Origin: Chloroflexota bacterium | GTDB taxonomy: Bacteria; Chloroflexota; Limnocylindria; Limnocylindrales; CSP1-4 | Assembly: GCA_003141455.1 (NCBI GenBank) | Contig: PLMA01000041.1 | Coordinates: 1 to 47,211, forward strand | Direction of reading: 5' to 3' | Length of the DNA: 47,211 nt | In this document: piece after piece, positions 21,852 to 24,464 of the stretch | Position numbering within the stretch: the first letter of the stretch is position 1 | Layout: each line of letters opens with the position of its first letter | Translations under genes and position numbers: made by a program | Notes under the pieces: model-generated | The model's database searches: none | What the model was told of the DNA's origin: nothing | What the model saw: the letters and a program-made list of their open reading frames with translations, nothing else

Positions 21852-23138
21852 CTAGCGAACCTTGGTCACCGTATAGTCGAGCGTGCCGGCCGGCACCTGG
21901 ACACGAACCGTCTCGCCGGCTCGCCGGCCCATCAGTGCGCGGCCGATCGGCGACGTGTAGCTGATCTTGCCGGCCCTGGCATCGGCCTCGGCCGAGCCCA
22001 CGATCGTGAACGTCTCCTCGCCGTGGCGGTCCGTCTCGATCGCGACGGTAGAACCGAGGACGACCACCGTGCCCGTTCCCTCGGTCTCGATGATCACCGC
22101 GCTCTTGATCATCTGCTCGAGCTGCTGGACGCGGCCCTCGAGGAACGACTGCTCCTTGCGGGCGGCATCGTAGTCGGCGTTCTCGCTGAGATCGCCCAGT
22201 TCGCGAGCGGCCTTGATGCGGGAGATGACCTCCGGTCGCCGCCGATTCGCCAGCTCGTCGAGCTCGGTCTGGAGAGCGGCGAGACCCTCGGCGGTGACGT
22301 GGGTCGGGACGGCGGACGACCCGCGCGAAGCGGCCGCCCTCTTCGAGGAGCGGCGCACTACCACGGTCTCGATCGCCGACGGACCGACGGTGGCCATGGG
22401 CTTGGGGACCGTCTTGCGAGGCGTTGACTTGGGCGTTCGGAGACTCGCCGGCCTCGTGGGCCTGGGGGCTCCACCGCGAGCCCGAAGACGACTGGCCGCC
22501 ATCTCTTCTGCGTTCGCATCCGGCAGGACGGTAACCTTGGTGACCTTGACCGGCCGGTTCGCTTCCGAGTCGTGGAGGGGCGCTGTGATGCCGTGCTCGT
22601 GGCGCTGGCCGCTGGGCGTCGCGAGAACCGCAAACGGGAGTGCGCCGACGCCCTTCTGGAACTGCTCGATCAGCGTGTCCTCGTACAGCTCCGGATCGGC
22701 GGTGGGTGCCCACCATATCCGGGCCTTGTTCAGATCGTGGAGCGTCTTGAGCCAGTAGCCGGCCGATTGCGGCCGGCGCTCACCGAGCTGGGTTTTGAAC
22801 ATCGCCGCCAGTCGCGCGGTCACGGACTTCTGGCTCGAGCCGATGTAGAGGATGGACTGACCGGGCAGCCAGAACGACGCAAGGCGCGATTGCAGCTCGG
22901 CAACCGACGGTCGTTTGCCGTCGAGGCGCAGCTCAGGGGCGCGCTCGAGCCACTGGCGGATGGAATTCGCGTCTATCGAGACTTTAGGCTGTGGAGCCGG
23001 AAGTTCGACCACGAAGACGCCCGGGCTGCCGCCCGTGACGGGCCGACCCCACAGAATCGGGCCTTCGACGGCCAGGCCGTTGGATCGCAGCAGCTCTCGG
23101 CCGTTGAGCGGCGCGGCGGAGGGGGATGAGGTGGTCAC
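21852..23138 (-). CDS. GIY-YIG-like domain fused to transcription elongation factor GreA
   Basis: 428 aa. Residues 279-428 are a complete GreA: the N-terminal coiled coil with tip acids D316 and E319 (GDLSENADY, 315-323) needed for transcript cleavage, then the FKBP-like C-terminal domain (TYTSPIGRALMG-type segment near 394-405). Residues 38-165 look like a GIY-YIG nuclease: GVF (40-42, Phe in place of Tyr), YIG (98-100), R109 nine residues later, and E153 in EDTLI. A basic, Ser/Pro-rich linker (210-278) joins them. GreA rescues stalled RNA polymerase; GIY-YIG occurs in UvrC and Holliday-type nucleases. GTG start with CACTTT 6 nt upstream, apparently leaderless. Convergent with the LiaF-like gene, 7 bp apart. 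Confidence 0.78.
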   Translation of the reverse strand: MTTSSPSAAPLNGRELLRSNGLAVEGPILWGRPVTGGSPGVFVVELPAPQPKVSIDANSIRQWLERAPELRLDGKRPSVAELQSRLASFWLPGQSILYIGSSQKSVTARLAAMFKTQLGERRPQSAGYWLKTLHDLNKARIWWAPTADPELYEDTLIEQFQKGVGALPFAVLATPSGQRHEHGITAPLHDSEANRPVKVTKVTVLPDANAEEMAASRLRARGGAPRPTRPASLRTPKSTPRKTVPKPMATVGPSAIETVVVRRSSKRAAASRGSSAVPTHVTAEGLAALQTELDELANRRRPEVISRIKAARELGDLSENADYDAARKEQSFLEGRVQQLEQMIKSAVIIETEGTGTVVVLGSTVAIETDRHGEETFTIVGSAEADARAGKISYTSPIGRALMGRRAGETVRVQVPAGTLDYTVTKVR

Positions 23139-23255: not shown

Positions 23256-24464
23256 CTACCTTGCCTTGCCGAGGCTTGGGTCCTCAGGCACCGGGATGCC
23301 GAGTAGGAGCGGCAGTCCGATTCGGTTGGTGTAGATCGGGCGATAGCGATCCGTGTTGTACATCGAGGCGACGTCGATCGAGCGCGGCTTCTGGTCCGGG
23401 TTCGGCAGTGGCGAGTGGCTGTATTTGCCACCGCGGATTGCCACCATTCGGCCGCTGACGCCCTCCGCGACCAGGTTCATGGCCACGTTCGCGAAGGTGA
23501 TGCCGACGATGGAGTCGACCGCGTCCGGATCGCCGGAGCGCAGGTCGTAGGTGAGTTCGCTGGCCAAGGTCTCCTCGCCGGAGACGGACTGGATCTGGGA
23601 GGCCAGGATCTCCGCGATATTGGCCTTGTGCTTGTGGCCGAAGGAGTCGGGCGGGCCCCACTCGTCGATCTTGCCGCCTTCCCACATCGCGCCCTCGGCG
23701 GCGATGACGAAGGAGTAGTGGCTGGGGTTGTTGAGCTTGTCCTCCACGAGCAGTTCAACGAGATGGTCCAGGTTGAACTTGTACTCGGGGATAAGACAGC
23801 GGGCGCTGGTGACGTAGGCGGTGTACAGGGCGGTGAAGCCGGCGTCGCGGCCAAAGATCCGGAAGACGCCGATCCGTTCGTGAGAGCCCAGCGTGGTCCG
23901 CTGGCGGTTGATCGCGTCCTTCGCCCGGCTGATCGCGGTCGAGAAGCCGATGCAGTACTCGGTCCCCTGGACGTCGTTGTCCATCGTCTTGGGGACGGCG
24001 ATCAGCTTCACGCCGTTGTCGGCGAGGACCTGGCTGAAGCTCAGGGTGTCGTCGCCGCCGATCGGGATGAGGTAATCGAGGCCAAGGCGCTCGATGTTCT
24101 CCAAAACGATGGGCGTGAGGTTGTAAACGCCATCCTTCGTTTCGAGCTGCTTGAGGCGATCTGGCCCGATGTGGGCCGGGAGCTTGGCCGCCTTCATCTT
24201 GCGGGCGTTCGTGCGGGAGGTGTGCAGCCACGTGCCGCCGGTCCGGTCGATCGCGCGGGTGTTGTTGCGATCGAGCGGGACGATGTAGTCCTCATCCAGG
24301 CCGGGGCCCGGCTTCATGTTCGTGAGGCCTTCCCAGCCGCGCCGGATCCCGTAGACCTCGTACCCAATTTCGGTGGCGCGATACACGACACTCTTGATGA
24401 CGGAATTCAGACCGGGGACGTCGCCGCCGCCGGTGAGGATGCCGATACGCGGGGTTCGAGCCAT
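23256..24464 (-). CDS. pfp: 6-phosphofructokinase, pyrophosphate-dependent type
   Basis: 402 aa. Phosphorylates fructose 6-phosphate, or runs in reverse. N-terminal GILTGGGDVPGLN (8-20) binds the phosphoryl donor. Two residues indicate PPi rather than ATP: D139 in GGDDT, where ATP enzymes have Gly, and K159 in PKTMDND, where ATP enzymes have Gly (PGT). The substrate region IGVFRIFGRDAGF and the late IAAEGAMWEGG are conserved. The length suits the single-domain PPi family rather than the 320-aa bacterial ATP enzymes. Ribosome site GGAAGG precedes the ATG; TAAGAT (24530-24525, minus) is a candidate -10. A PPi enzyme makes glycolysis reversible at this step. Confidence 0.88.
   Translation of the reverse strand: MARTPRIGILTGGGDVPGLNSVIKSVVYRATEIGYEVYGIRRGWEGLTNMKPGPGLDEDYIVPLDRNNTRAIDRTGGTWLHTSRTNARKMKAAKLPAHIGPDRLKQLETKDGVYNLTPIVLENIERLGLDYLIPIGGDDTLSFSQVLADNGVKLIAVPKTMDNDVQGTEYCIGFSTAISRAKDAINRQRTTLGSHERIGVFRIFGRDAGFTALYTAYVTSARCLIPEYKFNLDHLVELLVEDKLNNPSHYSFVIAAEGAMWEGGKIDEWGPPDSFGHKHKANIAEILASQIQSVSGEETLASELTYDLRSGDPDAVDSIVGITFANVAMNLVAEGVSGRMVAIRGGKYSHSPLPNPDQKPRSIDVASMYNTDRYRPIYTNRIGLPLLLGIPVPEDPSLGKAR

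Follow-up and report, generated by a model that had tools for sequence, protein, structure and literature searches.

A lineage-specific second GreA joined to a GIY-YIG-derived N-terminal domain in one family of Chloroflexota

Background

Factors acting through the secondary channel of RNA polymerase are usually viewed as small proteins with nothing attached to them. The gene described here encodes a complete GreA, the bacterial transcript cleavage factor, preceded by a domain derived from the GIY-YIG nuclease superfamily, and lies in a stretch of 47,211 nt (positions 1 to 47,211 of contig PLMA01000041.1, assembly GCA_003141455.1, forward strand; hereafter the window) of a Chloroflexota bacterium (Limnocylindria; Limnocylindrales; CSP1-4). 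To our knowledge, no GreA with a GIY-YIG domain has been described, and a literature search for the whole words GreA and GIY-YIG together found no paper, most subscription papers being outside its coverage. GreA fusions as such are already known, as are combinations of GreA/B-C with nuclease domains (reported in the accessible part of PMC8195603), and NCBIfam lists a fusion of a cleavage factor with an unknown domain.

The explanation favoured here, with a probability of roughly 0.55, is that the gene encodes a second, lineage-specific GreA which a mostly non-cutting module of GIY-YIG origin tethers to nucleic acid.

Architecture of the fused protein

The features of the gene and its product are as follows.

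21852..23138, minus strand: fused gene, 428 amino acids plus stop; GTG start, single open frame
22560..23105, minus strand: GIY-YIG-derived N-terminal domain, residues about 12-193 (AlphaFold model, hhalign to the stand-alone family, structure matches)
23013..23021, minus strand: GIY half motif, G40-V41-F42, Phe for Tyr (alignment with relatives)
22839..22847, minus strand: YIG half motif, Y98-I99-G100 (alignment with relatives)
22812..22814, minus strand: conserved Arg, R109 (63/64 fusion-family domains, 14/14 stand-alones)
22680..22682, minus strand: Glu of the GIY-YIG site, E153, adjoining the fusion-specific D154 (53/64 and 14/14)
22626..22628, minus strand: site of the C-terminal Asn, V171 in the window (alignment with relatives)
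22305..22559, minus strand: disordered basic linker, residues 194-278 (predicted local distance difference test, pLDDT; isoelectric point, pI, of the linker)
21855..22301, minus strand: GreA, residues 280-428 (Pfam, NCBIfam, profile match to 1grj)
22182..22193, minus strand: GreA coiled-coil tip, D316-L-S-E319 (Asp and Glu in 53/53 distinct fused GreAs)

The C-terminal part is matched by the Pfam models GreA_GreB_N (residues 281-349, E 2.7e-27, 95.2 bits against a curated cut-off of 24.5) and GreA_GreB C-terminal (residues 357-427, E 1.9e-24, 85.9 bits against 26.9), and is assigned by NCBIfam to GreA (NF001263, E 4.6e-53, 179.4 bits against a cut-off of 145). A profile built from seven GreA parts, that of the window included, matched the GreA structure 1grj at E 8e-46. 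The tip motif GDLSEN is present, and the Asp and Glu aligned with D316 and E319 are kept in all 53 distinct fused GreAs, in full agreement with the preliminary description of this locus, made from the letters of the window, which had claimed a complete GreA with cleavage-competent tip acids.

The AlphaFold model of the full-length protein (37 aligned sequences) comprises two folded units (residues about 12-193 and residues 279-428), between which pLDDT falls below 50 over residues 194-209 and 218-275. With a predicted TM-score (pTM) of 0.46, the mutual placement of the domain and GreA is not predicted, and the model shows no fixed packing of one on the other. The pI of the linker exceeds 9 in all 53 distinct fusions, at a median length of 77 residues (range 54-136). 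Amid its otherwise unconserved sequence, a motif T-x-V-x-LPD-A/G (22440-22560 in the window) recurs in the linkers of relatives, taking the form VVxLPxGDADGAR in other genera.

Origin of the N-terminal domain

Pfam has no match in the first 280 residues of the protein, and searches of NCBIfam, PADLOC and PDB gave no useful match for the domain of the window. The designed Pizza proteins, which appeared among the PDB rows with low E-values, were ruled out, since the matched segment is the Pro/Ala/Arg-rich linker region and not the fold. The AlphaFold model of residues 1-200 (mean pLDDT 89.0, pTM 0.84) displays the succession of elements which we take to be that of GIY-YIG domains, and the five PDB entries listed for it are all of GIY-YIG type, although one of them, the N-terminal domain of plant glutaredoxin (2lwf), is placed there by our own presumption.

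The nearest relatives of the domain are unnamed stand-alone proteins of about 160 residues. In hhalign their profile (A4) matched the fusion profile (A3, built without stand-alones) at 98.4% (E 4.8e-15) and the GIY-YIG domain of UvrC at 92.2% (E 5.7e-7), the negative control, GreA, yielding 0.04% (E 0.87). Compared directly with UvrC, the domain family of the window gave no significant match, and the GIY-YIG descent thus runs via the stand-alone family. A further profile (A1), used for domain finding and for the phylum survey, contains the stand-alone L033, and its matches to stand-alones are therefore partly by construction. In the joint alignment GVF (40-42), YIG (98-100), R109 and E153 fall on the columns which carry invariant G/Y, Y/G, R and E in 14 stand-alones, and the independent alignment of A4 with A3 pairs identical motif blocks. 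Pfam models of GIY-YIG type recognize some of these 14 proteins weakly (PF20815 five of them; PF01541 two, with a best E of 3.6e-4). Homology of the domain to the stand-alone family and its GIY-YIG descent are thereby supported, which bears out both the motif order and the fold guessed in the preliminary description.

The stand-alone family (L139-L149, L033, L059, L060 and L062 among our loci) is widespread, occurring on actinobacterial and other plasmids from several phyla and in Chloroflexota. It has no named model in Pfam or NCBIfam, and 21 of its 27 plasmid matches bear no annotation other than hypothetical protein. A stand-alone is also matched by one phage record that lacks annotation; the scan of viral contigs returned no relative of the fusion domain. 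Another observation concerns a small domain which replaces GreA or sits beside a GIY-YIG-like domain: L028, L068 (1200-1515), L086 (990-1270) and L058 carry it C-terminally to a fusion-type domain, and the stand-alone L060 carries it N-terminally. It is common to L068, L086, L058 and L060 (blastp E 3e-19 to 2e-6 between them), its only Pfam match is a weak one to RsmI_C (E 0.7), and it is possibly a helix-turn-helix.

Catalytic residues and selection

Residues were counted in 64 distinct fusion-family domains scoring at least 150 bits, including forms without GreA (L028, L068, L086); L033 and L058, with lower scores, were left out. Twenty of the 64 share more than 60% identity with the window and are called genus-like, the other 44 representing the rest of the family.

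Active GIY-YIG nucleases carry Tyr, Tyr, Arg, Glu and usually Asn. The site of the window protein reads F, Y, R, E, V instead, with F42 in place of the Tyr of GIY and V171 in place of the Asn, two substitutions overlooked in the preliminary description. The Tyr of GIY is kept in 29 of the 64 domains (1/20 genus-like, 28/44 other), and 19 of the 20 genus-like sequences have Phe at this position. The Asn is kept in 31 (1/20 and 30/44), and both residues are present in 14/14 stand-alones. The complete set was found in none of the 20 genus-like domains, in 11 of the 44 others and in all 14 stand-alones sampled; L068, one of the 11, has another domain where GreA would be. As regards the loss of Tyr, Arg and Glu across the family, named in the preliminary description as grounds for abandoning the nuclease assignment, it is seen for the two tyrosines (kept in 29/64 and, for that of YIG, 35/64) but not for Arg (63/64) and Glu (53/64). 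With the Tyr of GIY turned into Phe in 19 of the 20 genus-like domains, and the Asn likewise lost in 19 of the 20, the DNA incision at stalled polymerase proposed there is left unsupported.

In R.Eco29kI, according to the accessible part of PMC1952068, cleavage is abolished by Y49A (0%), H108F and E142A and reduced to about 10% by N154L, while DNA binding of the mutants is reduced but kept; PDB titles label Y49F and E142Q of the same enzyme as inactive variants. A firm verdict of inactivity is nevertheless opposed by Slx1 proteins lacking the Asn (PMC1564403) and by R.Hpy188I, which has Lys for the Tyr of YIG (PMC2630997), both as given in the portions available of these papers.

Within the genus, the domain, the linker and GreA had median pairwise ratios of nonsynonymous to synonymous substitution rates (dN/dS) of 0.18, 0.435 and 0.164, respectively, calculated from pairs with dS between 0 and 2.5 (153, 141 and 153 of 153); a median dS close to 1 makes these values rough. 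Purifying selection acts on the domain about as strongly as on GreA.

Distribution, copy number and neighbourhood

The domain was detected in 34 of the 61 genomes searched: 20/21 of the genus, 14/16 of other genera of the family and 0/24 outside it, so that all 34 positives belong to one Chloroflexota family, represented by 37 genomes. Of the three family genomes without a match, G028 carries a fusion truncated at the end of a contig (L197), and the remaining two are 75% and 66% complete. A 400-genome sample of the phylum gave matches in 32/33 family members and 4/367 others; two of these four represent divergent relatives that lie outside the fusion, and the weak matches in G062 and G108 are probably due to chance. 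A second collection yielded 48 loci, all in records titled as Chloroflexi or Limnocylindrales metagenome-assembled genomes. The domain and GreA share one frame in 41 of them, two are frame-split, three are cut by contig ends and two (L068, L086) have another C-terminal domain. In the frame-split fusions (L015/L109 and L023/L072) the domain is in one frame and GreA in another. The survey called for in the preliminary description points to more than a chance association, and a stable fusion of the domain to a cleavage-competent GreA is supported.

The same description asked whether a separate greA exists in the genome, and an ordinary stand-alone GreA is indeed present. Two GreA_GreB_N matches were found in 32 of the 37 family genomes, one in three and three in two; G030, where another C-terminal domain replaces GreA, has one GreA. 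In the sister family 16/19 genomes have one such match. In the tree, from which two frame-split GreA rows were excluded, a supported clade (100/98) unites 24 stand-alone GreAs from the family and its class and contains none of the fused rows. The labels fused and alone require three changes, one of them forced by starred branches; L197, labelled alone, is actually the truncated fusion of G028, and L196 stands as an outlier. The tree neither establishes nor excludes that the fused GreAs arose only once.

No neighbouring gene was found to be conserved across the whole family (48 loci). A gene judged by eye to be phosphofructokinase-like (23256-24464, minus strand, in the window) lies directly upstream of the fusion in 14/15 genus loci and in 0/33 others. 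The genome of the window further contains a PF01541 match, judged by eye to be UvrC, and an Mfd above the cut-off in a TIGR00580 search, which picks up other helicases as well (the cut-off is reached in 49 of the 61 genomes). For this genome, the idea that the fusion makes up for a missing Mfd or UvrC was therefore rejected: the fusion is not a substitute for a lost transcription-coupled repair pathway, and, as the genome keeps its own GreA too, it is an addition rather than a replacement. UvrC-type UvrB-binding, EndoV-like and HhH domains were not found in the window protein, in which Pfam sees the GreA domains alone.

Proposed function and alternatives

In this reading, a small stand-alone GIY-YIG protein gave rise to the domain that a GreA paralog acquired at its N-terminus. 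Because its sequence and tip acids are intact, the GreA part is most likely to act like ordinary GreA, entering the secondary channel of RNA polymerase and stimulating the cleavage of backtracked transcripts. Near the polymerase, the basic disordered linker and the domain of GIY-YIG origin would most likely hold nucleic acid, be it extruded RNA, the template or DNA downstream, and thereby concentrate the factor at particular stalled complexes, where it would divide labour with the stand-alone GreA. Most or all of the cutting ability of the domain has probably disappeared in the genus of the window; the quarter of the other family members that kept the complete site may still nick. The data show the architecture, descent, conservation, residue loss, purifying selection and copy number; from these are inferred the binding of polymerase and of nucleic acid, the loss of catalysis and the division of labour.

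Alternatively, the domain may have been retooled for protein binding or some other chemistry. Such a new site could be marked by residues near-invariant in the fusions, E45, W63 and W142 (64/64 each), W129 (63/64), R140 and D154 (62/64 each), none of which is a majority residue among the 14 stand-alones, and they persist while the old site drifts. Since R109 and, mostly, E153 of that old site are kept nonetheless, we consider retooling a rather doubtful possibility.

That the domain is a working nuclease which nicks DNA at backtracked or stalled polymerase, and so links transcription directly to incision, seems unlikely. Its GIY-YIG descent, the retained Arg and Glu and the 11 complete sites outside the genus would suit such an enzyme, as would a gene of Mre11/SbcD type (by eye) located 4 nt downstream of the fusion in L070 (5271-8570) and L071 (5271-6542), which in L070 is followed by a Rad50-like ATPase gene; both loci have a DEAD-box-helicase-like gene upstream. 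The Mre11-like neighbour is, however, limited to 4/33 non-genus loci, F42 and V171 take the places of Tyr and Asn in the window protein, no genus-like domain has the full set, and the genome already possesses the UvrC-like match and Mfd. Slightly more doubtful still is a mixed scenario, in which GreA delivers an active GIY-YIG nickase to backtracked polymerase in part of the family, turning a stall into a nick without Mfd and UvrAB, and the genus of the window later made a clamp of the nuclease.

A role in defence or conflict, with GreA targeting the polymerase and the domain acting as a toxic effector, is brought to mind by the GreA/B-C plus PIN proteins of PMC8195603, whose accessible part describes GreA/B-C architectures with nuclease effectors and variable N-terminal effectors. 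Those proteins, as far as that part goes, use GreA/B-C with TPR and PIN and without the coiled coil, whereas GreA is complete here; moreover, the gene is near-universal in one family (34/37), its genus neighbourhood is conserved, the site erodes rather than diversifies and PADLOC models gave no family for the protein at E up to 1, all of which makes this role highly improbable. Equally hard to credit is the view that GreA alone matters and that the domain merely rides along as the remnant of an old fusion: it would fit a genus in which most catalytic residues are gone, but the dN/dS of the domain lies below that of the linker, at least 10 of its positions are invariant in 64/64 and no fused gene was seen to have lost it.

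That one bacterial family keeps a GreA paralog whose basic arm bears a domain derived from a nucleic-acid enzyme suggests that factors of transcript cleavage can be directed to some stalled complexes and not others. Catalytic residues are lost by degrees, from complete stand-alones through partial sites in the family to a genus with none complete, which offers a natural series for testing the conversion of a nuclease into a binder.

Comparison with known systems

With ordinary GreA the fusion shares the complete two-domain structure and the tip Asp and Glu, and differs from it in the added folded domain and basic linker and in being a second copy beside the normal protein. The plant glutaredoxin N-terminal domain (2lwf), presumably of GIY-YIG type, has glutaredoxin as its partner. 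The GIY-YIG superfamily (UvrC, R.Eco29kI, R.Hpy188I) resembles the fusion domain in fold by model, in descent by profile and in the kept Arg and Glu; unlike these enzymes, the window has Phe for the Tyr of GIY and Val for the Asn, and the fusion domain has a helical insert between the half motifs and GreA as its partner. The GreA/B-C plus PIN conflict proteins likewise join a Gre-type module to a nuclease-type domain; in the accessible part of PMC8195603 they have other effector domains and no complete GreA, and GIY-YIG is not mentioned. The unnamed stand-alone family is homologous to the fusion domain column by column, yet its members have no fusion partner and all 14 sampled retain the full set of catalytic residues.
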